From NCBI RefSeq assembly GCF_003073045.1, contig NC_037593.1, forward strand, positions 18,156,725 to 18,220,724: DNA of 64,000 nucleotides, written 5' to 3'. The translations under genes and the position numbers were made by a program. Under the pieces are notes generated by a model. The model had not been told where the DNA came from and ran no database searches. It was given only the letters and a program-made list of their open reading frames with translations. Below are positions 8,669 to 56,765 of this stretch, piece by piece. This stretch comes from Pomacea canaliculata (taxonomy: Eukaryota; Mollusca; Gastropoda; Architaenioglossa; Ampullariidae). The first letter of the stretch is position 1, and each line of letters begins with the position of its first letter.

Positions 8669-11015
8669 CTACAGGCGGAGCTCATTGTTGAGGTTTTGGC
8701 ACGCTACATACACGGCACGTGCAGACTGGAAGTTGTCCGGACTTGAGTTGATGACCCGAGCCGTGAACCCTCGAGCCGTGACGTCAGAGACTACAATCTG
8801 GACATTCTGGTCGGTGCTTTTGTGTGATGAGTCGTCTCCCTGAGAGTTATCGCCATTGGTGGCCCGTGGTGGGTAATCGTCATGAGAGAAGAACTGGGCG
8901 TCGATAGATGAAGAATATCCCGAGAGGACAAAGTCGACGGTCGGGGGTTGAGTAAACGCGGTTTCAAACGGTACTGACACTGTGTCGATCCCAGACACCA
9001 AGACGACAAAGCCATACTCGCCTGCACAAATGTCACACAAACAGCATTTATTGACAGAAAGAATCAAATACATCAGAGTAGCAAAACGAACGATATTCAA
9101 ATTCATTTTCTCAGATCCACGAAACCACACTGTCAGCCTAGTCTTTGTACTAGTGATTGCGATTCCTGATCTTGTTTCAAAACATTGCTTGGAGTTGCTT
9201 TTTCCCTTTCCTCCTCCACCTCACCCTTTCTCGGTGATAGAGTAATAGGTGTTTAAACTCAATGGATGCTAACAACCTGTTACTGAAACAGCCTGAACAT
9301 AGTCCCAGACATTCACGGTGTCAAAGGTCGACGGATGGGTATCGGACGCACGTAACATACAGGTAATTAAGGTGAAAGGTGAGTGGAAAGGACAGACTTT
9401 CAACTCACACTTGCGGCCGTTCACGAAGGCGGTGACGGTCTTGAGGTTCTGTCGCTCCTTTGCCAACAGAGAGGTCAGCTGGCCGATCTGTGTGTCCAGT
9501 TCTTTCAGGAAGTAAGCCTCCAAGTTCCTCAGGTCGCCTTGGAACTGAGCGATGCTGCGGGCGTCGTCCGTGTTGTTCTTTGAGATCTGCGCCACCAGGG
9601 CGCGCTGCTGCCTAATGACGTCACTGGAGGCGTTGGCGGAAGCAAGGGCTGCGGTTGCTGTGACGTCAGCACGGGCTGCGCGGTCCCGCAGTGAGTCAAT
9701 CTGTGGCAAGCAGAGAGACAAGAAGAGTAACACAAGTTGTGATGAAGTGTGGAATGTTAAAGTTTAAAGTCACGTGTTATCCAATGGCGCACATTACACA
9801 CCGGCGATCCGTGACAGTAACTAGGAAACAAGTATTGATAATAATATACACTAAGTGTAATAAAAACATCTGCCTTCAGGCTTACTCCAAGTATAAACAG
9901 AGACTTTTACAAATCTTACCATTTCCACCAAGAGAGAAATAGCAGCGTCTGTCTGAGAGTTGTCGAGTGTGAGTGCTGGGAGAGTTCTTTGGTTGATGAG
10001 GCTTAGACGCTCGGCAGCAACTCCAATGAGAGTCTGGTAAGTGTTCAACTCTTTAATCAGCTCGTCAGTAGAGCCAAACAAAGCTGGGTACACACACAAC
10101 ATGAACCTTTACACCAAATGTCGCTCTGTGTATGATTTTGACAACAAACAGAATCACGATTACAAAACTAAAACAGAGAAATTACAATAAATGAACTTAG
10201 CGTGTAATTATGTAATCCGTGCTACACCGGATTTTTACTAGTGTATTTTTAGTGTTATCTTTATAGTGATTTTCTTACAGATCAGTGTTGTTTAGTTTCA
10301 TCATTTTTTATTTGCAAACGTTTAACACGGGAAGAAAAAAATGTATCAAACATTTAAATGAACACAAACACAAACATACAAACACGGTCATGGACAGCGC
10401 CTTGTGTAGGTAAAAACTACAGGTAATACAAAATGAGGTGAGGAAGATGTTTATATACTCACTTATGACGACGTCGTTGGCCCTCTGAACATCTGCCTCT
10501 GGCACTGAACCAGCGGTAAACTTATCTTCGTAGGGTTTACTGTCATACACTGGACCGTAATTAGGTTTGACTTCATAGTCGGGTTTACTGTCGTACACTG
10601 GAGCATAGGTAGGTTTACCTTCGTACTCGGGTTTTTTGTAGGTAGTTTTACTGTCATAAACTGGACCATAGGTGGTTTTACCTTCATACTCTGGCTTTTT
10701 GTAGGTGGGTTTACTGTCGTACACTGGAGCATAGGTGGTTTTACTTTCGTACTCGGGTTTTTTATAGGTGGGTTTACTGTCATACACCGGAGCATGGGTG
10801 GTTTTACCTCCATACTCGGGCTTTGTGTAGTCGGGTTTACTGTCGTACACTGGAGGATAGGTAGGTTTATCTCCGTATTCAGTCTTTTTGTAGTCGGGTT
10901 TATTTGCATACTTGGAAGACTTGCCGTAGCCACCTGCTGGCAGCTCGGGCGGGTGATACTCAGCAACTGCCGTGACCACCGTGAGCACGACGACGAGGAG
11001 GTGAAGCGCTGTCAT
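8669..11015 (-). CDS. Gene A: secreted Tyr/Lys-rich repeat, coiled-coil, H-type-lectin-like protein
   Basis: Exons in transcript order: 11015-10463, 10083-9920, 9700-9409, 9021-8669, total 453 residues. The start MTALHLL is chosen because genes C and E share it; C has no Met at the position of A's upstream Met (11057). Signal peptide: MTALHLLVVVLTVVTAVA, likely cut before EY. Residues ~20-175 hold Tyr/Lys/Pro repeats of 21 residues (SKPTYKKPEYEGKTTYAPVYD type), about five full units plus partials. Exons 2-3 encode a coiled-coil rod of about 150 residues. The last exon encodes a beta domain from CEYGF to VACQN with the F..PP.V..VLSGY and VSDVT..GF patterns of H-type lectins. The repeats recall DOPA-bearing mussel foot protein repeats (analogy only). 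Subfamily A/C/E. Function not known; secretion is well supported, adhesion or matrix role is inference. Confidence 0.85.
10520..10905 (-). repeat. 63-bp coding tandem repeat in gene A exon 1
   Basis: About five to six 63-bp units encoding a 21-residue Tyr/Lys/Pro-rich block (KP-Y-KKPEY-K-TY-PVYDS). Gene E has about two to three units and gene C less than one, so copy number varies strongly between paralogues. Confidence 0.85.
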
Positions 11016-11121
11016 CGCTGATGTTGGGGAGGACCTGTTGGCAGGTGAGCCACTCATGCTTAGTGCTGAGTAACGAGGCTGAGGCTCAGAGTCGTCAGAG
11101 GGCGTCAGCAGCTAGAGGGCG

Positions 11122-11129
11122 CTTTTATA
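11122..11129 (-). promoter_or_regulatory. TATA box of gene A
   Basis: TATAAAAG on the minus strand, 107 bases before the chosen ATG. The same TATAAAAGCGCCCTCT block precedes gene E at the same spacing and a variant (TATGAAAAC) precedes gene C, which supports it as the core promoter. Confidence 0.75.
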
Positions 11130-11228
11130 CACTGTCGTCTATTATTGCTGTGACCTTTGACAGCGATTGTTGATGTAAAACAAGACACGGCACAACAGTG
11201 GAATCAGTTGCCTAGGGGTTATTTCTTT

Positions 11229-11252
11229 GCTATCAGATAATAATAAAATATA
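11229..11252 (-). promoter_or_regulatory. Conserved upstream block of genes A and C, contains a GATA site
   Basis: A 24-bp stretch identical to 21787-21810 upstream of gene C, although surrounding intergenic DNA is largely diverged. It includes ATCAGATAATAATAAAATA (a WGATAR match). It lies about 100 bp upstream of the TATA box in both. Regulatory role is inferred from conservation only. Confidence 0.5.
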
Positions 11253-11339
11253 CATATTTGTCGACACACGTTAATATTCCAAATATTTTTAAAGACTAGC
11301 TATTTTAAGTTTTGGTTCTTAATTTTAATGGCGCTTAAT

Positions 11340-11530
11340 TATTATGCATGTCTCATACAGAATATTACTGATGAGATAAAGTTTGCAATATATAATCTTG
11401 CCGCAAGGTAAGTGCAACAAAAAATGTGATGTGCTGTTAAAACAACAAGAAAATAGAGAGTAAAACTCTCACTAAAGACTGATTTAAACATTGTGTTCAT
11501 TTGATAGTTATCGAGTAATATTTTTTTATG
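11340..11530. other. Intergenic block shared by pair 1 and pair 2
   Basis: Sequence around GCTGTTAAAACA...TCACTAAAG...GTTCAT...TATCTAG-like words matches about 22470-22640 between genes C and D in order and spacing. This supports duplication of the whole divergent unit including its intergenic region. Confidence 0.45.
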
Positions 11531-12528
11531 TTGAGTTCGTTTTTAACTATACTGCAGGTGTTTTGCAGCACTTTATGAAGTCGATTGTAAATAACAGTGA
11601 AGAATAAGAAATTCTTGAGATAAATCTTGGCTAAAATAATCTGGACCGAGTTCGAAGGAACTTATATGACTCCAACACGTGTTTAAACTTATTAATGATT
11701 TAAGAATGATTATGACATCAAGAGGACTACAAGCAGCCAGGAGTGATGTTTAGCTATAAAAGTGTCAAGATTAATGGAGAAAAAATCCATGTCGAGTAAG
11801 AGACTCTTTTTGTCAGTTCAGTACTGGAGCTCATGTTTGGAAAATTCCTTGGTTGTTTCATGCCTTCTCGTTCGACTTACAAAAATTTCGTTTTGTCAAA
11901 TGACATTCTCCAGACAGGCACTCACTCTCTGAATCACAACAGGCAATGAAATTGAAAATAGAATTTCAAGATTAATGTGTTTATATAATAAAACAAATTT
12001 TCACACATAAGCATGAGTTCTCATTCCTCAGAAACAGACGAAACTTTTCAAATTAAGAAAATGTAAACCAACTTTCAGAAGAAACCTTGAAATGATAAAG
12101 AAATACAAGCGTTTATATTATATATATATACCAACAAAGGTCTACAACAGTCAGATCATTAGAGGATAATGCTGCACCCAATTAAAATGTTAATATAAAA
12201 CTGTGATCCAAACTATATTATTAATATAAATACATTGCCGAAGTTAAGAGACAGTATGAAACGAAAGTCCAAACTGTATCCTTAGCATAAATCACATAAA
12301 TTGTCTTGTAACACATTAATTCTAGATGACAATTAACGCCACTGATCCGAAGGACGATGATAACATCAATAAAGCCATAGGGCTACCACAAAGTGACTTG
12401 AATATAAATTTGAGAGGAAAAAACTTTAGAAAAACAAGAAAACAAAAACGAAACAACCTTATCAGTTTTCCCATCCGACTGTCTCACTACTGGAAGCTCA
12501 GTTTTGTAGCTCCAGGGTGGAAATATTA

Positions 12529-12960
12529 GCGCTTCAGGACTGCAATTCGTCCTTCCCCCCGCCACTGCTGACAACTGTTGATGGACCTGCTCCCGAAGAA
12601 CGAGTTGTCTGTCACAATAGTCTCTTCCTTAGTCTTCTTGGTTATCTTGGTTATCCTCCGAAACGACCTCCACCCCCACAGCCCTACACAACTCTAAGTC
12701 AGGCCAAGCTCCCCACAAAGCCACAGGACCTTACGGGTCTCACCCGTACCCGAGTACGAACAGCTAGTCCTACCCGGATGGTTCTTCCCTCGGGTCTACA
12801 AATGGAGGATACGAAAAAAAAAAATCTCTCTTTACTTCAGCAACACAAACTTCCAACAATGGCAAACTTGGAAAATGCGATTTGTCATCTTATATTTTAA
12901 GTCACCTGACGAGTACAGTAGTACTTACAAAATAATGATGCCTAGTGTGTATTCTTTTGT
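12529..12960 (+). pseudogene. Wrecked B-type gene: exon 1 joined to 3'UTR
   Basis: 12580-12812 aligns with 5'UTR and exon 1 of gene B (same CCTCCACCCCCACAGCCCTAC and AAAGCCACAGGACCTTACG words). The start codon position reads ACAATAG instead of ACAATGG, and the frame is shifted by indels. From about 12826 the sequence matches not the intron but the 3'UTR of gene B at 17650-17750 (AGCAACACAAACTTCCA, then GCAAAATGCGAT-like words). All coding exons 2-6 are thus missing. This is a dead copy of a host gene formed by duplication followed by a large internal deletion or unequal crossing-over. Confidence 0.75.
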
Positions 12961-14493
12961 TTGTAAGGTGCTGAGTGTTTGACGATCCATGTACAGAAAT
13001 ATTAATGTGGGTAGGTAAACAGTACATTGTCAGATGTCAGACTGTTTTATTGTCTGCACTGGCTCTATCCCCGGGGCTGAGACCACAGTGATGTCCATAC
13101 AAGCAATAAAAGACGATTCCCGACATTCATTGCCTTCGTAGCAATATCGCTTCAGGAAATATTGTGTAAACAGGACTTGTATTCATAATATTTATGTGCA
13201 ATATTGTCCTTATCACGTGATCACAAAACTTTCCTCTTTTAGAATTTTAATGACCGAGGCGGTTACTGACTTAAAATAGAAACCAACGGCCTGTCCACTT
13301 CCTGCAGGCATGTTTTCTTCTCCTCTAGATACCGCTGTCAGAGAATAAATTAAAATATATTTGCCTACACCCATGCTTGTGGTAATACGTATTTGAGAAA
13401 CCTAACATTATTTCTCTAAAATGTCTTTTCATAAAGATGCCAGCTGTCGCCTATAAACACAATAAACTGTCTTTGTGAAAGCCTAATATGTAAAGAGATA
13501 GAAACGTTATGATCCATAAAGAACCTGATCTGAATTTGAAGTATATTAAAATAATTGCTTCTTTGGCTGAACATTGCTTTTTCAACTCGACTTAAGATCC
13601 AATGTTATTACCGATGTGTAAAAGGAAGATAAGTCTTCAACCTGAACTCATCCCAAAAATAAGTAAAGAACAAATCCCTCGAACGTTCTCTGAGGGTTTA
13701 CTAAGGGATCCAATGAACAATTACCTAATCTCATTCAGCAGCTAAGAGCAGAGGTCAGCATTGTGACTTCCGGCATTGTACACATTAATTGCAGTTTTAA
13801 TCAGCTTTTTATTCTCAGCTACAGATGACTACAATGGAGACAATAACGGCTTTGTCCTGGTCACCCATGTCTAATGGCGAGCATGATTTGACTGTGTTAC
13901 AGCTAAGCGGGAGTAACTGTTCAAAAAGCCATAGACAAAGATAAGCAAGAGCAGATGCTAATTTTGTCAGTTCAATAAGGGAACATGTTTGGAACATGTA
14001 CTGTTTTCTTCATGTCTTCTCTCGCGAGTTTTGGGATTGAAGATGCAACCACCTTCAAGAAAAGACCCGGTAACGGTAAACGTTTTAGAAAAAGACTTTC
14101 ATATTAGTATTGTTTGCTAACAGACATCTAGAACACTCAGCCTTACCCAATCATTAAAAAATTGCTGCACTTCACTAGACTTTTACTATAAAATATGGTC
14201 TATACTACAACATTATTCATATAGGAGCATGAATAAAATCAGGACATTAATAATATGAAACTATAATCAGAACGAAACTGTCTTGTACCACTTTAAACCA
14301 TCGTGACGACTCCTACAGAGGGCGATGATAACATCAACAAAGCCTGAGGGCTACTGAAAAGTGACATGAATATAAATTTGAGTGGAAAGAACTTTGGAAA
14401 AACGTCAAAACAAAAATAAGACAGCTTTATCAGTTTTCCCATCCCATTGTTTCGCTCTTAAAAGCTCAGGATTTTTTTAAACTTCATGGTGTG

Positions 14494-14501
14494 TATATAA
14501 G
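14494..14501 (+). promoter_or_regulatory. TATA box of gene B
   Basis: TATATAAG 87 bases before the ATG at 14588. The spacing fits a short 5'UTR like those of genes D and F. Confidence 0.55.
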
Positions 14502-14587
14502 TAAGTCTACTTCTTCATAATTGTACTGCAGTTAAGCCCCTCAACGTTGCTGACGACCTGTCCCTGAAGAAAGAGTTGTCTGTCACA

Positions 14588-17470
14588 ATGGTGTCTTTCT
14601 TTGCCTTCCCGGGGATCGTGGGATTCGTCCTGGCGAGTCTGGTCTCTGTTCAAACGTCGCCGCCGCCAACTCGACCTCCACCTCCAACTCCACAGCCCTA
14701 CCCCACTCCTAAGTCGGTCCAAGCTCCAAACAAAGCCACAGGACCTTACGTGCCCCCACCAGGACCGTACCCGGATGGTCCTGTCTATGGGTCTGCGAGT
14801 GGAAGGTATGAAAATTCTAGTTTTATTTGTAATAAATTTCATAATATGCAATTTTAATGATATTTAAAACATAACTGTTGCCATCGTATGCACATTCTGT
14901 TTTGTAAATGTCTTTTCTACACGAGCACTGTTCTCTTGTAAAAGTGATGTAAGTGGAAAAGGTCAAAGTTTGAAGACTGCAGGATGTAAACTGCTTGTGT
15001 GGGTGCATGAACGTTTGTTTGTAAGTCTGCACGTGTATGCACAGGTGATAACTCAGTAGCTCACTATCGTTTCTGATCAGCATTATAAACCATCTAGGTA
15101 CTTGAAGCCGCCATCCTTCCCATCATTCCCAGTGTCGAGTAAAGATGAGGTCGATGAGCTGGACAGACTTTTTGCAGACCTTGCCGGTGAGTAACACTAA
15201 ACATCTGATGTACTTGCATTAACACTAGACATCTGATGTTTCCACTTGCAGTGGGTCATTTAGTGGGTGTTTCTGTTAGTTAGCACACACACACACACTC
15301 ACGTGTGTTTAAATCTGATGTAGTAAACGAAGGCCATAATTGTAATAATATTCACAGAATGTCTAATTAACATTTCCACTCAGCTTCTCCTCTTGGCACT
15401 AAGGTTTGCTAGTTATGTGATCGCACAAATGGCAGTCACTATGAAAACTTATTATTATTCTCCTTTGTCAGTGGTCAAAGAGAACATCTCTACATCTCTG
15501 AAAGACTTTTAACGAGGTTTGCTCTCACAAATTTAGTTTTCTATAATTATTCCTCTCCGCTTCATTCCACCGTAGGGTTACATCTGCTTACATATTAATT
15601 TTGTCTTCTGGGCTCATTGTCGAAATCGCTGTCCTCACTATCATATAAGTATTACAAATTCTAAAATACTTTCAAGATTTTGTAAATTGAAAGAAAATCG
15701 TTGCTTACGCGTTTTAAAAGTGCACGTGCAGTCAGTGACTCTAAAAAATATTTTGAGTTGCTAGGTGAACATATCAACAGGGTGCTGAGTATTTCTGTCT
15801 TGTGTTTTTGCAGCACTGTCTATTGAACTGGACTTCAGTGCCGAGACCTTGTCTAACCTGGACTCTCAGCAAAGTCTGCAGAAGAAGCTGGTGACACAGC
15901 TGACACTTCTGGACCTTCCGGACTTGGAGCAGGAGAACGTCGTCCGGGGCCAGATGCTTGACAAGCTGGAGCAGAAGGTGGGTAACTGCTGCTTCGTGGA
16001 CATCAACCGTTAACCCAGATATGGAGAAGGAAATCGCTTGAGTATACTTTGAAGTTTTGAAAGCTTTTTGTGGACACACACACACACATCTATATACAAT
16101 CATATCTACATGCACACATACAGATATACACGCTTACATGCACACACCCATTCACACATGCCAAAACACACTTGCGACTATGCTAGTGCAATGCGTTTCT
16201 TTTTTAGCTGCTTGACCTTGATGACCTCATTGGCGACCTGAGGGCGAATGTGGAGGATCTGGAGTACAGGAATTCTGAGAACGTCCAGGGCGTGAAAGAC
16301 GTGAAGATCGCTCTAGCCAAAGAGCAGGTTGTCGACTCCAATCAAGATCGCAACATCTCCTCGCTCCTGGCGGCCGTTCAGAACCTCAAGACCCAACTGA
16401 CCGTCGTACGTGTCATTAAGAAAATTATCTGTGTGCGTGTGTGTGTGGTGTGTATGTGTGTGTGTGTGAGAGAGAGAGAGGAAGAGGGAGAGCAGGTACG
16501 TTTTATTCCTTAACAACCTGTTCATTAATCTCCTATAAATTGCATACATGATATTTAAACATCTTTAATGTTTTGTAGTAACCTCTGGAAACTGCGTCTC
16601 GTCCTACGAATGGCTTCGTAGAGATTGTTCTGTTATCCTCACAGTTTAACACGTGAAAACAAACGTGTAAAAAGAGTGTTAATGAAATCATATGTATTTA
16701 CATTTACAGATCTCCAAAATGAAATTCACTGTTTTGGACAAGGAAATCGAAAAGCTGGTTGGGCAGCTTAGTTCTATCCAAGACTTAACATCCTTCGAAT
16801 CGTGTGAGTACATGACACTGACAACGATCGGGAGGAAGTCGTTGTGAAAATTAAAATTACACAACAAGAATTCGAGTTGGAATTAATCAACTGAAATGAA
16901 AAGAAGTTGTCATTATTGTTGTTGTTGTTATTGTTGTTATTATTATTGTTGTTGTTATCATTGTAATTATTAATAATTTAAGAGGTGTGTGTGGATTTTT
17001 AAAGCAACTTGGATATAGTAAATCGTATGTTGATATGCTGCATTACATGATTGTTTGTTCCCATGTTATGTCTTTCAGGTGAGACTGGTGTCACCACGCT
17101 GACGGCTGATGACCGTCGCAGCACCGTTGTGTTCAACACAGACTTCGGTGGCAACGTGCCTCAGATTCAGTATGGCATTACTGGCTTTAAGAGCAAGTTC
17201 GTAGGCGAGAAACCTTCCAAATCGTTTCAGTACGGCTACGGCTACGGCTACGGCAACGCCTACGATCCCAGGTACCCTCAGTACGGCTCTCCATCATACA
17301 GCGTGGGAGAACCAGGAACTCTGGGAGACATTGTTCTCGCCTTGGCCACACCAGAGTCCATCACCCTCCAGTTGTCCAACCTGGGGTTCAATGTCGCTGA
17401 GAGTGTGTCGGTGGAGGTGGCTTGGCAGGCGTGCTTCATGGGGCCCGGCACCCGCCTCGCTAAATACTGA
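14588..17470 (+). CDS. Gene B: secreted Pro-rich, coiled-coil, H-type-lectin-like protein
   Basis: Exons 14588-14805, 15098-15186, 15814-15977, 16208-16405, 16710-16803, 17079-17470; 384 residues with consistent phases. Signal peptide MVSFFAFPGIVGFVLASLVS, then a Pro-rich segment (PPPTRPPPPTPQPYPTPK, later GPYVPPPGPYPDGPVYG). Exon 2 (89 nt) has no counterpart in D or F. Exon 3 is the 164-nt rod exon; exons 4 and 5 are 198+94 nt, which equals the uninterrupted 292-nt rod exon of A, C and E. The last exon encodes the domain from CETGV to WQACF, with TVVFNTDFGGNVPQI and VEVAW as in H-type lectins. It contains a YGYGYGYG run. Unlike D and F, its lectin-like domain is not split by an intron. Nearest relatives are D and F, but it is the most diverged of the three. 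Function unknown. Confidence 0.83.
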
Positions 17471-17943: not shown

Positions 17944-19200
17944 ATTCTGTCATTTGACTCTTAATAAACTTGTTATCTATAAAGACCTAATACACGATTA
18001 AAGGCAACTGTCAACACTATACACAGTGGTCACTTAATATACTTATCAGCTGAAGTAACTGGAAACTTCTTTCCCTTTGGTTTCACTAAAATTGTATTTT
18101 TGAGCCAGCACTGAAAAAAGCAGCCGTTTTAAAATTTTCCGTGCTCGAGAGGTGCTGAACCTGTTTAGAAAACTATAGATGTTTCCAAATGTAAAAAACT
18201 ACTATGCACATGCAAAATAAATTAATTCACTGGATTGGGTGTGTTTAAGACAATGCTGAGCCCTACTCAACTGATCAGTGATCAATGGTTTCATGATGAA
18301 TACAACTACAAACCAGAACCAGTCTCTTAAATAAAACGTTGGGGACTTCAGGGGAAAATAATGGCTGACTCAAATAAACAAGTTAATTAAGAGTCTAATC
18401 AAAGCTGTTCTTTATGAAAGTAGAACAATTTTAGTTTTCAGTTTGTTTTTTGACTGGTGATCGCCAAACTAATACCAATCCCTACCCTATACTATACCAT
18501 AAACCACGTATTGACTTGATGTTTAAATACAGTAAATAAAAAATGAAGACAAATAGACGAACCGAACTTAATTTTACTTTTATTAGAGAACGTTTTGTGA
18601 ATGCAGTGGAAAATTTCAGTTAACAGTCATTCACATTTTGACTTAAACCAACTTTACCAATACAACTTGTTTGAAACTATCGGAAAGTTAAAATGAACTT
18701 AACTGTTACTTCAACAGAAAAGCATTTACTACGTAAATATTAAGAAGCTATTTTCTCGATTAATGATTATTTATTTTAGTTTCTTGAACTCCGGTTAATA
18801 CAGAGTTTACTGTCAATGTAATGTTTAAAGCTCTCATAGAGATAGGAGAAAGATATGATGTTTATTAAATGGGAAGATTAACTGGAGGTTTAGGTGGACG
18901 AATGTGATACTGATGACAATGTTGTCTTGAACATCGTGTGCAGCCGGTGGACATGTGAACGTGTCTGTGTATGTAAGAGAAATTAAGAGTGAAAAAAGGA
19001 CCAAGCACAGACAGAGACAATGGCAAGGACAATACTTTATTAACTAGAGATAAAGTAAGCAAGACATGTTTTCTCCGTTGCCTTTTTGTGTCCAGATCGA
19101 AGTTGTGCTTTCATGTTTTGCAATAAACTAATTAACACCGGTACTGAAGAACACACCAGTTATTGACCACATGTTCATTACAAACAGCATCAGGACATAA
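17740..19200. other. Intergenic DNA with a CA microsatellite
   Basis: Space between the convergent 3' ends of B and C. Contains a pure (CA)n run at about 17910-17940. The rest is AT-rich and I see no gene, exon duplicate or transposon end. Confidence 0.6.
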
Positions 19201-19672
19201 ATATTTTGGCTTGTTTACATTTTTTATTAGTGGCACATTCAGTTTGTGCGCGTGAAACACAGATTACTCTCTTCTGTCAAGAAAGGCTTAGTTATTAAAA
19301 TAGTTGTTTTCAGCAGAATAAAAGTGCTATTGATACCGAAAACATAAAAGAATATTTACAAACTAAACTAAATATCTAAATAAGTAAAAGTGAAAGTCAT
19401 AAAAATTGGGTCACAGTAGTTGCATATCTGCAAAATATTCAAGTGTACCATTAAACATCAATTAAACAGTAACAGATAAATATTAATTAGACTTGTTTTC
19501 TTTAGAATCAAAGAATTTTGAGATTAAAATGTATATAAGTGTAAGAAGAAAAGTAAATAAAAATGCTTGATTTGGACTTTCGTAATTTGAGCAAACAAAA
19601 ACAACACAAGAGACAGAACAGACCACGGCTTCAGTGATCCCTTCGTAGGCCATTACCATGGTAACAAGAAAT

Positions 19673-21557: not shown

Positions 21558-21665
21558 CGCTGATGTTGGTGAGGACCTGTTGGCAGGTGAGCCACTCGTG
21601 CTGCGTGCTGAGTAGCGAGACTGAGGCTCGGAGTCGAACAGCGGGCAAGTCAGCAGACGGCGGGC

Positions 21666-21674
21666 GTTTTCATA
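21666..21674 (-). promoter_or_regulatory. Probable TATA-like element of gene C
   Basis: TATGAAAAC at the position where A and E have TATAAAAGC, followed by the same CGCCC block. It is a weaker TATA match than in A and E, which could mean lower expression. Confidence 0.45.
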
Positions 21675-21786
21675 CACTCATCTACTTTATTGCCGACCTA
21701 TGACCTATACATAATTCTTGAAGTAAAACAAGGATGGGCGCAGCCGAAGAAACACACCCCCAAGGGCACTTTTCCCTTCACATATT

Positions 21787-32340: not shown

Positions 32341-32357
32341 AATGCCTCCGTAGCCTT

Positions 32358-44443: not shown

Positions 44444-47067
44444 CAGGGATGGGCAAGCTACTTTTAATTTGTAGCCGGCTACGCTACAGCTACTTTTTTT
44501 CAAAACGTAGCCAGCTACACTACAGCTACAATTTTCCAAAACGTAGCCAGCTACTTTGGGCTACTTTTAAAATGTAGCCAGCTTCTTTTGGCTTCTTTTG
44601 GCTACTTTAAAAGCGTGATGTTATAACAAGTTAGCTGTAGCCAGCTGGCTGTAGCAACATACACAAACATCAAGCATACACACAAAACACTATTACTTGC
44701 TAACACAAGAACTGGTTTTTATATACATTGACCTTTATTCTGATCTGAGACCACCAAAAACTCCATATTAACAACAAAATGCAAAGGTATAAAACAAACT
44801 TTTGACTTAGTGCTGATAATTTGTGAATACTGTTAAAACAAATCTACATGCTTTCAGTCCTCCATGGAATTGAACTTGACCAGAACTTTGGCCTCGAAGT
44901 TGCCGTCTGTCCCCCTAGTGCGCAGCTTTGTCATGATAAGTCCTGCCAGACTGAACTATCTCTCAACCGCAGCACTGCTTGGCAAGACGGTGTTGGTGCG
45001 CAGATAGAGTTGTTTGATCGTGGGCTATTCGTCCAGTTCATTGACATTCTGCGACAATCCAGACATCAGGAAGGTAGTTGTCTCAGGGGTGCCGGTAACT
45101 TCTTCATAAATGATGAAGTCTGCCTGTTCGTCTGTGCACTTGATTGGGGATTGGACTGGCGTGTCCATCAATGCTGCCTCTGCAGTCAAGAGGGATCTGC
45201 ATTTCTCACGCAGGGTTTGGTCCCCAGTCCACATCAACTTGCACCTGAAACAATAATATGCACAATAATTAATGCTTTGTTTAATTTCGTTAAATTTTTT
45301 TTCTTATTGTTGTTTTTTAATTAATTTTATAAAATGTACTGGTTTTTATGTACTTATTTTGATTTGTAGGCAAGTTTCAAAAGACCAGTGACAGTGAATA
45401 TTATGTTTTGTTTTTTTAATCAACACCCCCCTCCTCCCACCTTCCGTCAAAAGTTTATTTTTTAATTTATTTACGGATATTTGTATAGCGCTTATTCTCG
45501 TGTAATCTGAGCTCTAAGCGCTTCACATTCTTCTCATTCTCAAAAGAACAGTGACAGAGAGTAGCTTATAAATGAAGAAAAAATACACTGAAATAACGAA
45601 AACTCTCCCTCACCTTGGGTTCGACACAGTTGTAAGCAGGGTGTCTTGGTCCTTATAGGCATCAGCAAATCTGGTCTCCAACCCATTCAGGACAGCAGTA
45701 CCTATGGGACCACAGATTTCTAGCTTGGACTTCTGTTGCTCGATGCGGATCTTGAGGGTGTTGAGCTGAGGCAGGAGGTGTCCCAAGCCCACGCACTTCT
45801 CGCCCTGCAAGTAGTCGAGGCACATGAAATTTGAGTTCTGTGACCAAGAACAAAAGATATTAATTGTGGATACATCACCCTACTTAAAATAAAACTAGTA
45901 AAACAAACAAAAAAGGAAGAAAAAAAAATAGTAAAACTTACCTCCAACATTTGGTTCGCCGTTTTCCTGCTCATTAACTGCGTTTCCTGGCCAGTGAGTC
46001 TGGACACGAACTTTGAAAACTTCTCGTTCTCCAGTATGAAGAAGGACAGGTTGCATTCCAACAGGTAATCAAGGACGGCGGAATTGACGTCTGCTTTGCT
46101 GACGGTACTCTTGTGTTCCACTTTGAAGAGCTTCGAGACAGAGGGTTGGTCGTCGTCTTCCCTTTTCCGCTTTCGTGACGTTTCCAAGTCTTGAGTCAAC
46201 TGCCTGGCAAGCAGTGGATGTTTCCTCTAAAATAAACACATGAAAATGAAACAAAATTTTAGAAGTCCATTCACAATCACAGCAAGTTTCTACCAAGCTA
46301 ATTGTCATATTAAATTACTAGCATTAAATATAAAATCCTTCAAGCCACCATACTGTTCAAACGTCCTCCATGCTCTTTTCATACAAACAAACCAAAACAC
46401 ACACACACACTTTATGACAAAGACTAAATAGATAGTACACAAACGGTAAAGACAGCAGTTTGATCAGTCGTCGCCCCAGCGGTAATCACGTTGATGCAAC
46501 CCCTTACCTTTCCACAATCTTTACAACATGTACACTCCTCTATTCCAAAAGCAGACAAGCAAGAACATGAAGAATGAAGATCGATGAAAATCTCAACGAA
46601 CTTACCTGCAAGTGCGTTCTCAAATTAAACGCCGACGTCTTGTTCGTTGAGTACTTCGTGCTGCCGCACCCATTCTTGCATTTGAAAGTATACCCACTCT
46701 CTTTTGCTTCACAAAATGTAAAGAATTTCAAGTAAGGCTCGAAATTGATCGTCCATCTTCGTTTTCCAAATCGCTCCCGCCACATGGACGACACAGTACT
46801 TGCGGTTACTGAGCGCGCGAGACACGTGGGTGTCTGGCTGTCAACACACCGAGCAGTGAGAGCAGTGGCTGTCGTCGTCTTGCTGACACGCTGTCGACGA
46901 ATGGTCGTGAAAGTAGCCAACATGTAGCCAAGCTACAGCTACTTTCTAAAATGTAGCTACGGCTACAAGCTACTTTTTTTAAATTTGTAGCCGGCTAAGC
47001 TACAAGCTACAAAATTTGTAGCCGGCTACAGTAGCTGTAGCTAGGCTACAGCTACTCCCCATCCCTG
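44444..47067 (-). mobile_element. Full-length hAT DNA transposon, copy 1
   Basis: Ends CAGGGATGGGCAAGC and CTCCCCATCCCTG are flanked by a perfect 8-bp target duplication GGTGTGGG (44436-44443 and 47068-47075), the hAT hallmark. The transposase is on the minus strand. 46923-46607 has a BED-like zinc finger (FKCKNGCGSTKYSTNKT and LRTHL). Further blocks lie at 46227-45951 and 45830-45612. 45240-44850 has the hAT C-terminal dimerisation region (NTVLPSSAAVERQFSLAGLI). Blocks are bounded by GTAAGT and TTTTAG signals, so the gene may be spliced. A TAG interrupts the last block after NVNELDE. Many GTAGCCGGCTAC-like subterminal repeats lie at both ends. Confidence 0.88.
45455..45540. repeat. Dispersed repeat nested in hAT copy 1
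   Basis: TGTATAGCGCTTATTCTCGT, then GAGCTCTAAGCGCTTCACAT is an inverted-repeat-containing motif of a type I associate with mollusc dispersed repeats. It sits in a probable intron of the transposase and is absent from copy 2. Confidence 0.4.
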
Positions 47068-47075
47068 GGTGTGGG

Positions 47076-48336: not shown

Positions 48337-48852
48337 ACATCATATTAGGAACAGACCATCATCTTTCACTCGCTGATTTGGTTTCAACAACAACAAACAT
48401 TTATTTCTTCTTTATATTTTATTTATTGACACACTCATCTTTAAGACTCACAATCAATCAGTTAAGCTCACAGGGCTGGCTTTCATTTTTTTTTTCCTGT
48501 TCAAATATAAGACAGTTAACTATCATCACCATCTTTAGCGCTCTTCTCCTTCATAAATGTTACAGACAGCTTCATCAGCATAAAGTCAAGGTTATCAATA
48601 CACTCTGCTTTCTTTGTAACAAGGAAGAGAGCTAATTACATTTAGTTAAAAGAGCCACAGAGGTTGCATATTTACAAAATGCACAAGTTAACGCTTGTGT
48701 ATAAACAGACGTAAACAAAATTGCTTGATTTAGACGAAAACTTAAGGAAAAATGAAAAGGCTGAACATGTCTGTGAGCCGCTGGAAATTAGAGGTGAACA
48801 GTTTTCGGCTGACAGGTTCGCCTTGAAAACTAGTGTCATGGTGACAGGAAGT

Positions 48853-49229
48853 CTAATAGTAGACCTCGCTGTTAAGGTTCTGACACGCCACGTACTTGGC
48901 AGTGGCCTTCCTCAAGTAGAAGTTTTCAGCATTTGTGTTGATGACCCGTGCCGTGAACCCTTTTTCCGTGACGTCAGAGACGACCACCTGGACGTTCTGC
49001 ACTTCGTTCTTGTACGACGAGTCGTCTCCCTTAGGGTAATCACCATAGGTGGACTGAGGTGGGTAGTTGTTACCGGGTGGATAACGATCACCAGGTCCCA
49101 ACCGGGCGTTAAGGAGCGAAACGTATCCTGAGAGGACGATGTCAACACTTGGAGCCTGGTTGAACTTTGTCACAAACTGCACTGACGCGGTGTCGGGATT
49201 ACTCAACAATGCAACGTAGCCGTACTCAC
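48853..49229 (-). CDS. Second (distal) lectin-like terminal exon of gene E
   Basis: Complete exon: acceptor CAG before GTGAGTACGGC, open to a TAG stop, 377 nt. It encodes EYGYVALLSNPDTASVQF to VACQNLNSEVYY, so it keeps the second Cys and the VSDVTEKGF pattern. It is three nt (one codon) longer than the proximal exon. It has the same phase, so it could serve as an alternative 3' exon of gene E. With no upstream exons of its own, it is either alternative or unused; sequence alone cannot tell. Confidence 0.7.
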
Positions 49230-49447
49230 CTGCAAATGATCGCACACACCTATCATTCGCTTCGTTTGCATTCGATTCATTAAAAGATATGAATAATTAC
49301 AGGAATCAAGTATGCAGACAGGAAGGCACAGCTCACTCACTGTTGGTAACCTTAACAACTTAAATCTTTCACGGACCTTAATGGCGTCACGACTTTGAAC
49401 ATCATATTAGGAACAGACCACCATCATTCACGCGGTGATTTGGTTTC

Positions 49448-49497
<50 letters not shown>

Positions 49498-49498
49498 A
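49448..49498 (+). repeat. (CAA)n microsatellite
   Basis: About 16 CAA units. The matching place in unit 1 (near 48386) has only three, so the run expanded after the duplication. Confidence 0.9.
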
Positions 49499-49977
49499 CA
49501 CTTATTTCTGCTTTACATTTTATTTATTGACACACTCATCTTTAAGACGTACAATGAATCAGTTAAGCTTACAGGGATAGCTTTCATTTTTTGCCTGTTC
49601 AAATATAAAACAGTTAACTATCCTCACCATCATCTTTAGCGTTCTTCTCCTTCACAAATGTTACAGACAGCTTCATCAGCATAAAGTCAAGGTTATCAAT
49701 ACACTCTGCTTTCTTCGTAACAAGGAAGAGAGCTAATTACATTTAGTTAAACGGGCCACAGAGGTTGCATATTTACAAAATACACAAGTTAACGCTTGTG
49801 TATAAACAGACGTAAACAAAATTGCTTGATTTAGACGACAATTTAAGGAAAAAGGAAAATGCTGAACAATATATTCAGCGTCTGTGAGCCATGAAACATC
49901 CGCTGGAAATTAGAGGTGAACAGTTTTCGGCTGACAGGTTCGCCTTGAAAACTAGTGTCATGGTGACAGGAAGTCTA

Positions 49978-52607
49978 CTAGTAGACCTCGCTGTTAAGGT
50001 TCTGACACGCCACGTACTTGGCAGTGGCCTGCCCGAAGTAGAAGTTTACTGGACTTGAGTTGATGACCCGTGCCGTGAACCCTTTTTCCGTGACGTCAGA
50101 GACGACCACCTGGACGTTCTGCACTTCGTTCTTGTACGACGAGTCGTCTCCCTTAGGATATTCACCATAGGTGGACTGAGGTGGGTAGTTGTTGCCGGGT
50201 GGATAACTATCGCGAGGTGCAAACCGGACATTAAGGAACGAAGCGTATCCTGAGAGGACGATGTCAACACTTGGAGCCTGGTTGAACTTTGTCACAAACT
50301 GCACTGACGCGGTGTCGGCATTACTCGTCAATGCAACGTAGCCATACTCACCTGCAAATGATCGCACACACCTATCATTCGCTTCGTTTGCATTCGATTC
50401 ATTAAAAGATATGAATAATTACAGGAATCAAGTATGCAGTCAGGAAGGCACAGCTCACTCACTGGTGGTAACCTTAACATAAGGTGACCAGACGTTTCGG
50501 GGGCGAAAGCGGGACACGTGCCGATGATGGTGTCGTCACCGTCAAAGAACGCCGAATCAGCGTACGGTATTCCGATTTTTAAAGATAACCGGGGCATTTG
50601 ATCGACTTGCCAGAAAGCCAGAAAGCGGGACATTGAACGTCCCGCCCGATGAGCAGGCGGGACACGAGGTCAAAAGCGGGACTGTCCCGCCTAATGCGGG
50701 ACTGTCCCGCCTAATGCGGGACCTCTGGTCACCTTACTTAACAACTTAAATCTTTCACGGACCTTAACGGCGTCACGACTTTACCGATAACATCTCTTTG
50801 CACACACTATGTTTAAACAGAAACTGTTTATGAACTTAAAGTTTGGAAAATGGTAGAATGCACTTAGCTACGCTTAGTGACTTGAAAAAACTTTCTGAAT
50901 GGATACGTTTGTGAAAGACAGATGTGTAAAAGGGGATTGTAAAGGACAGACTGTAGAAATGGCCATCAAGAAACTCACACTTGCGGCCGTCCACGAAGGC
51001 GGTGACGGTCTTGAGGTTCTGTCGCTCCTTTGCCAACAGAGAGGTCAGCTGGCCGATCTGTGTGTCCAGTTCTTTCAGGAAGTAAGCCTCCAAGTTCCTC
51101 AGGTCGCCTTGGAACTGAGCGATGCGGCGGGCGTCGTCCGTGTTGTTCTTTGAGATCTGCGCCACCAGGGCGCGCTGCTGCCTAATGACGTCACTGGTGG
51201 CGTTGGCGGAAGCAAGGGCTGCGGTTGCTGTGACGTCAGCACGGGCTGCGCGGTCCCGCAGTGTGTTGACCTGGAGAAATCATCATCGTCATCATCATCA
51301 TCATCAGACCAAGTTAAAACACAGAACGGACAATTTGTAGTAAATGCCAGAATGGAGTGAAACCAGTCGAGACAAGGAGAGGATTCACGGTTCCATTGCC
51401 TATCTCTAAGCACCAAGCGTGCACCAGAGTTCTATTCTTTCTTGACTTTATGACTAATGTATGGAGGGAAGCAGCAAGTAAGGAATTACAATAATTAAAC
51501 CCAGAACGAAAACACAGAAGTGGCTGCAGCGAGTGTTGAGAGAAAATGAAGAATGGCGCAGATTTACAGCTGTAACTTGTCTGTCAAGCTTAAAGAAAAA
51601 TACGAGATTACCGACGGACGACGATGATGTTGGTGTCTCAAAAAAAAAAAATATTATACTATTTTGTTATTATTGTATTTAGGTAAGCTATGCGTGAAGC
51701 TTACTAATGTCGGCAAACGGTTAGAAAGACGCCTTTATCAATGTCTGCTAATATTAAAATACCGTTCAAACTGTCTCCTTATATGTGAAACTATTTTGCG
51801 ATGTACACTGGAACCTTACCTCTTGGTCTAAAAGAGTAATAGAAGCGTCTGTCTGAGAGATGTCCAGTCTGACTGCTGGGAGTTCTCTCTGGTTGATGAG
51901 GTTGAGACGCTCCGCAGCAACTTGAATGAGAGTCTCGTAAATGTCCAAGTTGGTATACAGCTCGTCCTTCTTGGTTATCAAAACTGGGGACAGAGACATT
52001 AGTCACTCTATTGCTGTGTGATTTACACAATAAACACAGAAGCGGTTTTTATGGCAAGATGTTACAAGAGTTCTATTTAACTTTAGTCTTTGCCGTTTAA
52101 TTGCCTAACACACTTTTGTAAACGTTTTCAGTAGTCCATTCAATGTTTCCTCCACATCCTCACATAGACAAATAATCATGACGACAACAATGTAATAAAG
52201 AGTTAAAATGCTACAGACAATAAGAAAGAATATTGACAAGTGAAATTAAAATACTCACCTCCGACAGCATCTATTGCTGACCTGACATCTGCCCCAGTAG
52301 ATTTCTCTCCATAGGGTTTATCTTCATACACTGGGTACTCGGGCTTCTTGTAGTCTTGGTTACCGTCATACACTGGAGGATAAGCCGGTTTACTTGGGTA
52401 CTCAGGCTTCTTGTAGTCTTGGTTACCGTCATACACGGGAGGATAAGCGGGTTTACTTGGGTACTCGGGCTTTTTGTAGTCTGGAGCATAGGTAGGTTTA
52501 TACTCGGTTGGTTTATATACCTTACCGACAGTCGGGTACGGCGGGGAGTACTCAGCAACTGCCGTGACCACCGTGAGCACGACGACGAAGAGGTGAAGCG
52601 CTGTCAT
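49978..52607 (-). CDS. Gene E: secreted Tyr/Lys-rich repeat, coiled-coil, H-type-lectin-like protein
   Basis: Exons in transcript order: 52607-52259, 51983-51820, 51270-50979, 50351-49978; 392 residues (393 if the distal last exon is used). Signal peptide MTALHLFVVVLTVVTAVA. N-terminal segment has two to three 21-residue units (DYKKPEYPSKPAYPPVYDGNQ-like is the unit; Tyr, Lys and Pro dominate). Rod exons are 164 and 292 nt as in A and C. The 292-nt exon is nearly identical to that of gene A although introns and the other exons differ strongly. The last exon encodes CEYGYVALTSN to VACQNLNSEVY with VSDVTEKGFTARVIN. Head-to-head with gene F. Same subfamily as A and C. Function unknown. Confidence 0.85.
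50480..50736. mobile_element. 257-bp inverted-repeat element (MITE)
   Basis: Begins TAAGGTGACCAGACGTTTCG and ends CTCTGGTCACCTTA; the ends are inverted repeats of about 13 bp. It splits a sequence that is continuous in unit 1 (CCTTAACAACTT at 49348 onward), with CTTAACA on both sides as a likely 7-bp target duplication. The interior has a 20-bp tandem unit built on GCGGGACTGTCCCGCC. Superfamily unassigned. Confidence 0.8.
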
Positions 52608-52715
52608 CGCTGATGTTGGTGAGGACCTGTTTGCAGGTGAGCCACTCGTGCTTCGTGCTGAGTTACAAGGCTAAGGCTCGAGTCAAACAGCGTGCACGTT
52701 AGCGGACAGAGGGCG

Positions 52716-52723
52716 CTTTTATA
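52716..52723 (-). promoter_or_regulatory. TATA box of gene E
   Basis: TATAAAAG followed by CGCCCTCT on the minus strand, the same block as upstream of gene A, 109 bases before the ATG. Confidence 0.75.
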
Positions 52724-52729
52724 CACTGT

Positions 52730-53760
52730 CTCCTTTAATGGCTGTCACCTACAGTCTGGCCCAATGGCGAATTTAGCTCGTTAAGCAAAAGTAGCACGCG
52801 CCAGGTAAGTTTCCTTCGGGCATTTTTTCCGATCCTCACACTGCTTTAGAAAAATAACTTGAATTAACTGAATGAATTAATTTTTTTAATGCTAACTTTA
52901 CTATTTTTATTTGTGCATATTATATGTGTATACATATCATGTAGGTTTGGGCATCAAACCTTTTAAAAGACAAATTGATAACCAATTTCTTCATAAAACT
53001 ATTATGTTCTTTAACATAAAATTATAATGAATGATTAATGTTGGTTAAATAAAAGAATATTAAAATAATAACCGAACTTTAAAAGTTATTGGTTAATAGC
53101 TTGTTTATTTCAGGGCTAGTTGTACTTGTTTTGACTTTACTGGACATTTTGATAGAGAAATCTGTTTCACTGCAATAAAGAAAAGTTTGATTTTATGCTT
53201 TTATTCTTGCATTTTTTCAGGAACATGCGATCGGCATAGACATTTAATAACAAAAAATTAAAAGAAAAAAGACATCGAATTGTTATACATTTGTATTTAC
53301 GTTTGTCATCAAGCAATGATAACAAAAATTATTACAAAAAGACAGCAGGATAAGTTCCTGTTCAGACTGGATTTGGTCTAATATTCATGTTACTGTTTAC
53401 AAGTATTATTTTTTACAGAGAAAAAGTTTTTTAAAAATCATTCTGCGGATTGTTTACAAATTAGACTCCAGATGATGGTAGAGCACAAGGAAGACTTCAA
53501 GGTAAGGTGTAACTGCACTAAGATAGTGGAAAGACCATAAAGAGTCCATTAAACGTGACCAGATTCAATAATAACCATGAGCGTGGAGACTAGTGGAACA
53601 ACGAAGCCAGCGGCACAAGACTCAGCTATTAAAATGTCAAATAATGAAAAAAGACATTATTCGGTTTTATTTTGTTTTTCAGGCTATTGACTGATGATTT
53701 TGTAAGATATTGCCCGATCTATTCTGAGGAGCAACTCAAGCCAATCACACTCTAGTACAC
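52730..53760. other. Divergent intergenic region of pair 3
   Basis: About 1.0 kb between the promoters of E and F. It is AT-rich and lacks the 24-bp block shared by A and C. No gene seen. Confidence 0.5.
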
Positions 53761-53778: not shown

Positions 53779-53880
53779 CCTTCCTACATAAGCCAGATAC
53801 TTTGTTCGTTGCTGCAGTTGTCGCGGACCTCGTCAGACTGTTCCTCAATCCAACGTTGGTAGCAAGACCACGCGACGACA

Positions 53881-56765
53881 ATGTACCTGTCAGTGTGTCT
53901 GGCTGTGGCAGCTTTGTGGGGTGGGGCCTGGGCCCAGTCAGGGTATGACTACCCGGGTCCCTACGGACCTCGTCAGGAGATAGAGTTGCCGAAAGTAAAG
54001 CGTGTTATCAATGAAGCAGAAAGTAAGTGACAACTTTTCTTTGTCCTTCTTCCATACTAACGTTAAGATGCTTTTTGACCGTAATTTTTTCTTAAGTCTT
54101 AAGATGTAATTTTTATTGTCTACTTGTTATCAATTTATCTAGAAATCGTACTGTCTTGTAACACTATTTGCGTGTTTTTTTTTTACCTCTATCAACATAT
54201 GTAAGCGATCTTACTTCTTCTAACATTGCACATTTACAATTCCGAGTGATGCTCAAGCTTTAAAAGAATTTTAAATGCACGTTTGGAACAATCACTGACT
54301 TACTGTCGACCACTACGACGATCGCTGGCTGACAATTAGTCCCGATGACACTCATTGACTTATTGTTTACTAAAACCCGTGCAGGAGTCGCTGACATAGA
54401 AGAAGTTCTCAAGGATAAACTGGACATGTCCAAGGCAGAGGCACTAGAGCTGCTGGCCGTGCTGGACAACATCAGCAACACCACAATCTATGACATCAAC
54501 CAAGTCAACCAAAGAAACCGAGAGCGACTCGCCAAACTTTCTGCGAGGGTAGGTATAGTTGTAACATGTTCAGGTGTAACAAGGGTAGGTGTAATTACTT
54601 TGGAAACAAAAATTTCTGTGACAAGTGATGATTGTTTCCTACCTGTGCGTCACTGCCAGAAGAAAACAATATCGTGTTATAGACATAAAAACTGCACTTT
54701 TAGGTGGGTGACTTAACAAGCGAACATATGCATGGATAGACAAATGAAAATACAACTTCAAGGTACGTGATCTTTACTACCAACGAAGTAATTCGTGTTC
54801 AGGCAGCTTTGCTTTCCATCCATTACTCTCAGGTTAAGGCCAGCCTTGAGCTGCTGACGACACTGGAAAACCGGTTGGCTGGCGCCGTGGCTCAGGAGGC
54901 GCTCATCAAGGGTCAGACCGACGCCATCGCGACATCCATCAGTGAGTCTCTGGCTCTCAACCGCCGGCAGAGGGCAGATCTGGCCGCCTTCGTCGTTGCC
55001 TTGAGAGAGGTAACCTTTGACCATTTAATCAACTATGTGTTGCTGTGACCGTAACGCTACAGAAGTGCAATTATACTGTTGTTACAGAAGACTGATTTAG
55101 ATGTCAAGGGAAAGTTTTAATGAGGGAGGACACTTGTAATCTGTAAAACGCCATCATCAAAACTCTGGAAAACGATCAAAGAGAACTGAAAAAAATGTTT
55201 CTTAAAAATTTAACAGAATAACATGAGGGCTGTTGTTGTTTCGGTAATATAGTTTAACTGACTCTCTTGTAGATTGTAGTGAAGGCTAGAGACACTTGTG
55301 ACATTAGGTCCATGGCGGTTTGTGTAGGTCACACAGGAGCTTCAACAACGATTGGCCGCCGACAGCAAGACTGCAGCTTCCCGTATTGGTTCCCTTGCTG
55401 CCTCCATCCGCTCCTTAGTCAAGTTCGTAAACACCAGGAAATGTAAGTTGACAGTAACAAAAAAAATTTAATCTCTGTATTACCGAAAAAGCTTAAGATT
55501 ACAAATACTATATACTATTTCGGTTTTAGCTTAAAAAAAAATTAAATTTAATTAAATTTAATCTTTTTGATGTCTCGACTACAAAACTCATTTTAGTTGC
55601 ATCCCTAACACATAGAGGGAGATTGTGTGTGTTTTACTGCGCAGTATGTATAACCACCACTTAGACGTAGTGTGTAACAGCTGTGGGACTTGAGAGAATA
55701 CCGTTAGCTGCTGGTGTGAAGTGGCCAGACTACCGCTAACTTTCCTACCAAACGATGTATGTACCTCGTGTTTCAGGCTTTACCAAGGCCGTTACTGTAG
55801 AGCTGAAGGGAGAGGACAGCGTGGACACCGAGATTCCAATACCCAAAGGTGTTTTTGCTGCTAATGATGTTGCACAGGCGTTCTGTGCCCTTCAAGGTTT
55901 GCAGCAGTCTGCTGAAGTCTCGCAATCTGTTGTAAGTTACCTTGACATTATTAGTATTGTAAAAATGTTTTGATAGAATGACTCTGTGAATGCATGTCAG
56001 TCAGTGAGTGGGACAGTAAGTGAATGAGTCAGTCAGTCAGTCGGACTATAAGTCAGTCAATCGATGAATACATCAGTCAGTATAATTTTCTTTGTTAGTT
56101 TGTGAGTCATAGTGTAAGTGAGTAGTAAGTCAGTGAGTCTGTTTGTCAGTCAGTAAGTTAGGAAGAGGGAGTCAGACAACAAACCAGCCAGTTTACTTGA
56201 AGGAAGAATGAAGGCGACGAACGACTCTGATATAAAAAGACGAGTACTGAATTTAAATTTTAAAGTCTTCGATGGACATACCTCAAACAAAATGCATGCC
56301 AAGAAACCTTTTTGCTGAGTAAGCGAACACGTTGATGTTATCTGACTGTTTGTAAAGAGAAGGTTAAAGACCAAACAGACTGAAAAGATTAATTTTGCTT
56401 TTAGTAATATTGAGATTGACTTTAATACTAATATTAAATTGAAAATGGTATGTAACTAACACTCAGCTACATAGTGTCAACTAGAGCCTTCTACCATCCT
56501 GTGGAATTTTCAGGCTGCTCCTGCCTATGGTGCAAGCTATGGATCAGGCTATCCTTATTACCCAGAGTCAGATGACCGCCGCTTCCTGGGTGTCTCTGTG
56601 GTGTGCAAAGCGTTCTCGGACAAGATCCGCGTGACTGTCGTTGACCAGAGCCAAGGAGCCGGCAACAATGTCGCTGCCGCCTACGTGCAGGTGAAGGCCT
56701 GTTCCCTGCCGGCTGCTGCCTTCTCTCCCGGTCAGGTGTTTGTTCCCAAGCCCAACAAGTACTGA
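53881..56765 (+). CDS. Gene F: secreted coiled-coil, H-type-lectin-like protein
   Basis: Exons 53881-54022, 54385-54548, 54833-55009, 55328-55442, 55777-55931, 56514-56765; 334 residues. Signal peptide MYLSVCLAVAALWGGAWA, then QSGYDYPGPYGPRQ as in gene D. Rod exons are 164, 177 and 115 nt; 177+115 equals the 292-nt single exon of A, C and E. The lectin-like domain runs from CFTKAVTVEL to YVQVKAC, split by a phase-0 intron at the same place as in D. The final exon is about 95% identical to that of D from 56559 to the stop and into the 3'UTR, while the preceding exon is clearly less similar. C terminus NKY. Head-to-head with gene E. Function unknown. Confidence 0.85.

Follow-up and report, generated by a model that had tools for sequence, protein, structure and literature searches.

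We analyzed a 64,000-nucleotide stretch of the genome of the gastropod Pomacea canaliculata (RefSeq assembly GCF_003073045.1, contig NC_037593.1, positions 18,156,725 to 18,220,724 of the forward strand; hereafter the window), animal-type DNA with short introns that carries six genes for putatively secreted, rod-bearing proteins. An earlier note, prepared from the letters alone, had placed these genes in three head-to-head pairs, A/B, C/D and E/F, and spliced models checked for splice borders and frame bear this arrangement out. In pair 1, the A-type gene A (8669-11015, minus strand; exons 10463-11015, 9920-10083, 9409-9700 and 8669-9021; 453 residues) stands opposite gene B (14588-17470, plus strand; exons 14588-14805, 15098-15186, 15814-15977, 16208-16405, 16710-16803 and 17079-17470; 384 residues). 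Pair 2 joins the A-type gene C (19673-21557, minus strand; exons 21383-21557, 20956-21119, 20474-20765 and 19673-20043; 333 residues) to gene D (23182-25752, plus strand; exons 23182-23326, 23496-23659, 24193-24357, 24647-24761, 25080-25234 and 25489-25752; 335 residues). Pair 3 consists of the A-type gene E (48853-52607, minus strand; exons 52259-52607, 51820-51983 and 50979-51270, followed by one of two alternative tail exons, 49975-50351 [E2] or 48853-49229 [E1]; 392/393 residues) and the D-type gene F (53881-56765, plus strand; exons 53881-54022, 54385-54548, 54833-55009, 55328-55442, 55777-55931 and 56514-56765; 334 residues).

The models were built by hand and their splice borders and frames verified by script; there are seven for the six genes, E being counted with either tail exon. 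All seven have GT-AG borders at every intron and closed frames, with four exons in A, C and E (whichever tail exon is used in E) and six in B, D and F. A tblastn search of the window with the seven models (E <1) returned no further complete family member; the one additional match was a fragment resembling B, located between A and B. The order of parts is the same in all six proteins: a signal-like start, a variable head and a rod, then a cysteine whose codon a phase-1 intron interrupts, and last a tail. The MTALHL exon and EYG tail exon ascribed to A, C and E are indeed common to the three, as are the MYLSVCLA start and NKY end to D and F; B ends in LAKY. The six genes are a real, well-structured family, more coherent than the earlier note could see.

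The rod: exon structure, length and register

The proposed homology of the rods holds for all six genes. The first rod exon is exactly 164 nt long in every gene and runs from phase 1 to phase 0, and each rod ends at a cysteine codon interrupted by a phase-1 intron. The remainder of the rod takes up 292 nt in five of the six genes, as a single exon in A, C and E and as two exons in B (198+94) and F (177+115), the exception being D (165+115); rod length is 152 residues in five genes and 148 in D. Across subfamilies, the 152-residue rods retain 16-22 identical residues of 153 in ungapped alignment, junction cysteine included (10-14% identity). The ungapped score at offset 0 was matched by 1-6 of 2000 heptad-preserving shuffles in all seven cross-subfamily comparisons of 152-residue rods, and offset 0 was the best of 61 ungapped offsets for A-B, C-B, E-B and B-F.

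Heptad registers were fitted to each rod separately by a Viterbi procedure with register-jump penalties of 6, 9, 12, 16 and 25. All six rods begin at a common heptad position at penalties 12, 16 and 25. The first register jump falls at rod residues 31-34 in all six rods at every penalty, and the second at residues 116-123 in all six at penalties of 16 or less and in five of six (all but D) at 25. Agreement between fitted registers was compared across subfamilies in five pairs drawn from A, B, C and F (A-B, A-F, B-F, C-B and C-F). It amounted to 0.90-0.99 when the penalty was 12, 16 or 25, with 0.91-0.99 from a separate run; rotated registers averaged about 0.14 (0-1 of 151 rotations reaching the observed value), and none of 300 shuffles reached it. 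The heptad fit itself was reached by none of 200 shuffles for A, B, C and E and by one for F, and Fourier analysis detected the coiled-coil period in five of the six rods (0-9 of 1000 shuffles). Rod residue 36 is a proline in A, B, C and E, and the rods of A, B and E have no other; C has a second, the rod of D has prolines at 82 and 86, and that of F has none. The shared 164-nt exon, together with the register, skip and proline data, provides strong evidence for homology of the A, B and D/F types and for constraint on rod geometry. Hetero-assembly would require rods alike in length, register and skip positions, as found here, and rods that remain matched in register after such drift in sequence suggest, though they do not prove, that these proteins assemble together into a secreted material.

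The position of the additional rod intron differs between B (after residue 121; position 16405) and F (after residue 114; position 55009; both plus strand) by exactly one heptad, in rods that are otherwise register-matched.

Secretion, heads and cysteines

Secretion, also proposed earlier, agrees with the signal-like starts and with the absence of any later hydrophobic stretch: no 19-residue segment with a mean hydropathy above 1.45 occurs past residue 30 in the proteins of the family. With signal cut sites placed by eye, on which both head and cysteine counts depend, the heads measure 166 residues in A, 98 in E, 40 in C, 80 in B, 30 in D and 29 in F, and the six mature proteins have two cysteines in common, one at the junction and one in an Ala-Cys close to the end of the tail; five contain no further cysteine and F has two extra. 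The heads of A and E are 13-15% lysine, 16-17% tyrosine and 14-19% proline, arranged in 63-bp repeats, of which 5.1 tandem copies (10581-10902, minus strand) encode the Tyr/Lys/Pro-rich head of A; the head of B is rich in proline.

Tail domains

The earlier note had described the family as lectin-like and had pointed to Pfam H_lectin (PF09458; gathering cut-off 24 bits) as the profile with which to check its C-terminal domains. Scanned alone, three of the four A-type tails exceed the cut-off, namely those of A (exon 8669-9021, minus strand; 33.5 bits, E 4.6e-8), E1 (26.6 bits, E 6.6e-6) and E2 (24.9 bits, E 2.2e-5), with C falling below it (20.9 bits, E 3.8e-4) and B, D and F going unmatched; among the full-length proteins scanned (A, B, C, E2 and F), only A passes. 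The H-lectin domain of the A-type tails holds a low-complexity insert. The label is thus appropriate to only part of the family, the A-type tails; lectin identity is unproved for the tails of D and F, which have neither a Pfam match nor a convincing link to the A tails. A profile link between D/F and A, reached by 1 of 200 shuffles, was considered as a sign of lectin identity and is not claimed, the aligned part being a low-complexity linker. The D/F tails are marginally similar to that of B (67 and 56 of 1000 shuffles in anchored tests; 3 of 200 by profile, where the aligned part is linker plus tail end). For B and A, the profile score was reached by none of 200 shuffles and that of the first 40 residues by none of 1000; by these measures the B tail is related to the A tail. 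Immunoglobulin (Ig), fibrinogen, C-lectin and C1q domains were found neither in full-length A, B, C, E2 and F (E <=1) nor in the seven tails.

Whether the A-type tails bind sugar is a separate question. Compared by profile with segments of the Helix pomatia agglutinin (HPA) and SLL-2, their score was reached by none of 100 shuffles, over only nine columns. In a MAFFT alignment with the HPA segment, which stops short of Asp26 and leaves that column outside the comparison, the columns of Arg63, Trp83 and His84, which we take to be sugar-contact residues, are occupied by Gln, Ser/Thr and Ser/Asn, respectively, in each of the four A-type tails. Because these three residues are replaced, an N-acetylgalactosamine (GalNAc)-lectin activity of the HPA kind appears unlikely, and "lectin" in the sense of an activity becomes doubtful. 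H-type lectins also oligomerise, and oligomerisation is the more likely role of the A-type tail than sugar binding. A Foldseek search with a low-confidence model of the A tail returned SLL-2 as the top match (E 0.19) and discoidin I at ranks 12 and 18, which are leads only; no lectin was among the 14 matches of the low-confidence B tail model.

Duplication, gene conversion and subfamilies

The earlier note recognized two subfamilies, with B as a relative of D and F. B is in fact not detectably nearer to D/F than to A, and three subfamilies fit better: within the window, B matches neither D nor F by blastn (E <=1e-5) or tblastn (E <1). As judged from these searches, B is a third subfamily, placed where a D-type partner would be expected and with its own 5' region duplicated. 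The duplicated region (12057-12616 versus 14039-14587; 65% identity) extends a broken B-like copy at 12351-12981 (plus strand), in which counterparts of B exon 1 and its 5' flank (12351-12817) are followed by a counterpart of the 3' flank of B (12836-12981). This copy does not keep the start codon, and the segments that resemble B are spread over different frames, one of them with a stop, although a further frame reads open through 156 codons.

Of the proposal that the divergent pair duplicated as a unit, the part concerning pairs 2 and 3 stands, with similar synonymous divergence (dS, NG86) for C-E and D-F, while pair 1 does not fit, A being like C and B having no match to D or F. The data are accordingly consistent with duplication of pairs 2 and 3 as a unit. 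dS ranges over 0.42-0.77 for A-C, 0.39-0.71 for C-E and, exon 3 excepted, 0.28-1.12 for A-E; for D-F it is 0.42-0.97 in five exons and 0.18 in tail exon 6. In exon 3, A and E differ at 7 of 292 nt (dS 0.014). The tract of high identity nearly coincides with this rod exon (9404-9692 in A and 50974-51262 in E, minus strand), and identity falls at the exon borders from 97-100% to 42-55% in gapped 40-bp steps (about 70% over aligned intron bases). From this abrupt drop we infer that gene conversion has recently acted on the rod exon of these two genes, which lie 41 kb apart. The tail exon of D and F also looks gene-converted, with a 200-bp tract (25554-25753 in D, 56567-56766 in F, plus strand) that is 90-97% identical in 40-bp steps.

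The two tail exons of E derive from a tandem duplication of about 1 kb that includes their flanks (48385-49357 versus 49486-50479, minus strand; 92% identity), and the exon copies differ by a nonsynonymous divergence (dN) of 0.066 and a dS of 0.088. The intron that precedes the E2 tail exon contains a perfect 20-bp tandem repeat of 2.3 copies (50676-50722), which lies in a segment (about 50480-50736) present in this copy of the duplication only.

Intergenic blocks and promoters

The sharing of flanks and intergenic blocks between pairs 1 and 2 was confirmed. The 3' flanks of A and C (8037-8507 versus 19132-19599) are 65% identical, and the intergenic regions share one block at 11321-11818 in A/B and 22443-22971 in C/D (61%, E 2e-30) and a weaker one at 13322-13540 and 21775-21983 (60%, E 2e-8). 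An A-type promoter block on the minus strand (11016-11253 in A, 21558-21811 in C and, in part, 52608-52750 in E) is 75% identical between A/B and C/D, the blocks common to the A-type promoters being 75-86% identical. Its TATA box, altered in C, lies at -114 from the ATG in A and at -116 in E; TATA-like boxes occur between -94 and -81 upstream of B and D, and a poorer one at -94 upstream of F. The distance from ATG to ATG is 3573 bp in A/B, 1625 bp in C/D and 1274 bp in E/F. Promoter words shared by partners were considered as a sign of co-expression and rejected, their counts being within background: B, D and F share 8, 10 and 4 7-mers with their partners against a null mean of 4.7 (maximum 16), and 0, 2 and 0 8-mers against 0.54 (maximum 4), with no 9-mers, so that no 8- or 9-mer is shared beyond background in A/B, C/D or E/F.

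Other features of the window

A long interspersed nuclear element (32322-35789, plus strand) encodes, over more than one frame, endonuclease, reverse transcriptase and RNase H domains. Inverted copies of a repeat lie on both sides of E/F (44444-47068 and 58750-61293), with eight arm pairs of 61-272 nt that are 87-98% complementary; two open reading frames within it gave no Pfam match. An open reading frame at 39903-40628 (plus strand) has a subthreshold match to DUF4218 and is perhaps a transposase fragment. Another open frame, of 693 codons (4020-6101, plus strand), is rich in proline and serine, contains a 42-bp repeat encoding DDPVYTNTQATEAM-like units, and has no Pfam match at E <=0.01. 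Neither Rfam (gathering scores) nor tRNA scanning yielded a match in the window.

Discussion

With modest confidence, we propose that the proteins of the six genes are secreted and serve as subunits of an extracellular structural material built on coiled coils. The 152-residue rod (148 in D) fits a coiled coil with two register skips, and its common geometry would allow A-, B- and D-type chains to pair side by side in register, as homo- or hetero-oligomers. The tail would cap or oligomerise the rod more than bind sugar, disulfides would form at the two cysteines that all mature chains share, and the heads may cross-link the filaments through oxidised tyrosine and lysine. Hetero-assembly of A-type chains with their partners is plausible, and the partners of each pair may be co-expressed. 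The closest functional analogy would be the whelk egg capsule bioelastomer, a material built from several related precursors (named CPs in Busycotypus and ECPs in Pugilina), with mucus or glue as the alternative setting.

A number of results weigh against this proposal. On the side of the rod, offset 0 ranks only second for A-F, fourth for C-F and third for E-F among the 61 ungapped offsets; the lenient penalties 6 and 9 give differing fitted starts and a lower register agreement (0.57-0.93, still reached by at most 1 of 151 rotations); the heptad fit of D is weaker (reached by 10 of 200 shuffles) and its rod lacks four residues; and Fourier analysis shows only a weak heptad periodicity in B, equalled by 132 of 1000 shuffles. 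Charge complementarity, considered as a sign of heteromers, was discarded since it holds for the E/F rods alone (isoelectric points [pI] 5.5 and 9.6), those of A/B and C/D all being acidic. As to the tails, those of D and F, like that of B, have no Pfam match at E <=10 when all seven are scanned alone. Shuffles reach the score of the last 40 residues of the B tail against A in 58 of 1000 cases, the two anchored 40-residue scores of the D/F tails against A tails in 643 and 197 of 1000, and the profile scores against HPA/SLL-2 segments in 41 of 100 for B and 5 of 100 for D/F. The AlphaFold 2 models of the A tail (eight strands) and the B tail (six strands) are poor, with predicted local distance difference test (pLDDT) values of 44 and 46, and no sequence match was found in the PDB with the A-type tail profile (E <=1) or with the B and A tails (E <=10).

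Common descent alone could also preserve rod geometry without any hetero-assembly. That the geometry is merely inherited, each chain being homo-oligomeric and the gene pairing an accident of tandem duplication, is a real if lesser possibility, and one compatible with the other readings considered here. The homology of all six rods, the non-complementary pI values of the A/B and C/D rods, the background level of promoter words common to partners and the loss of four rod residues from D all speak for it. The three subfamilies have nevertheless kept register and skips at 10-14% rod identity, which implies continuing constraint, and the divergent arrangement occurs three times, although pairs 2 and 3 may represent one event. 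A stronger form of our own proposal, in which the locus would encode a keratin-like extracellular system of three chain types with one rod geometry, divergent pairs, obligate heteromers, an H-lectin cap devoid of a sugar site and gene conversion that keeps the rods interchangeable, is rather doubtful.

The genes might instead encode soluble immune or agglutinating lectins, in which the coiled coil would multimerise sugar-binding H-lectin tails and duplication, conversion and the extra E tail exon would generate diversity. The H_lectin domain in the A and E tails (C being below the cut-off) and the duplicated, diverging tail exon of E (dN 0.066, dS 0.088) are in keeping with this, as is the presence of H-type lectins in the protective mucus of snails, according to the accessible text of one study (PMC10475054). 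We consider it unlikely in view of the loss of the three compared HPA contact residues from all four A-type tails, of Tyr/Lys/Pro repeats in heads of 98-166 residues that would be unusual for an agglutinin, and of the absence of Ig, C1q and fibrinogen domains from the five full-length proteins scanned; in addition, the A/E tract homogenises the rod exon and not the binding site, although the D/F tract does lie in the tail. That these are proteins of a foot or mantle mucus or adhesive network, of the same molecular design for another material, is likewise improbable. Tyr/Lys-rich repeats would suit adhesion of the 3,4-dihydroxyphenylalanine (DOPA) type, and an H-lectin is listed, in the part of the report accessible, among semislug adhesive components, more in foot than in mantle (PMC11178922). 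The present data do not separate such a network from an egg capsule, its published examples being compared by description only.

Were the structural proposal correct, the locus would provide a genomic basis, in three chain types and their gene order, for a protein elastomer, glue or mucus of the snail type, with a measurable design rule: a 152-residue rod, two skips, a terminal cysteine and an H-lectin-like tail. The question of whether materials of this kind are heteropolymers, and that of how a lectin domain turned into a structural part, would become directly testable.

Parts of this design are found in several known systems. Intermediate filaments and fibrinogen are built from diverged chains that share rod length, register and discontinuities. 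They offer a functional analogy, no sequence relation having been found other than a subthreshold Fib_alpha match for B (E 0.11). The H-type lectins (Helix pomatia and H. aspersa agglutinins, SLL-2 and the C-terminal domain of discoidin I; PF09458) are the family whose cut-off the A, E1 and E2 tails pass; to that fold the six-gene family adds a rod and a head, and its B, D and F tails have no Pfam match. The CAMPs of Cornu aspersum mucus, as described in the accessible text, are secreted and combine oligomerisation regions with lectin or fibrinogen C-termini, CAMP2 clustering beside a possible H-type lectin (PMC10475054). By that description, they have a constant N-terminus and a variable C-terminus, unlike the present proteins, in which the rod is constant and the heads vary most.

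In a literature search that covered titles and abstract openings, with subscription egg-capsule papers outside its scope, we did not meet the head-rod-tail architecture of these genes, which is weak evidence of absence. In the accessible portion of a paper on the Pomacea egg capsule, coiled coils appear only in a figure legend and lectins only in the immune group (PMC13394694). Marine snail egg capsule proteins (ECPs) are described, in the available text, as having head and tail domains at the N- and C-termini and, in the centre, a rod made up of two or three coiled-coil regions and linkers (PMC13052691). Compared by description only, the whelk and other marine snail ECPs thus resemble the present proteins in their succession of head, coiled-coil rod and tail, the two rod skips (with Pro 36 in A, B, C and E) being only candidates for the linkers, and it is in the manner of the whelk egg-capsule proteins that the subunits encoded here would most likely work.

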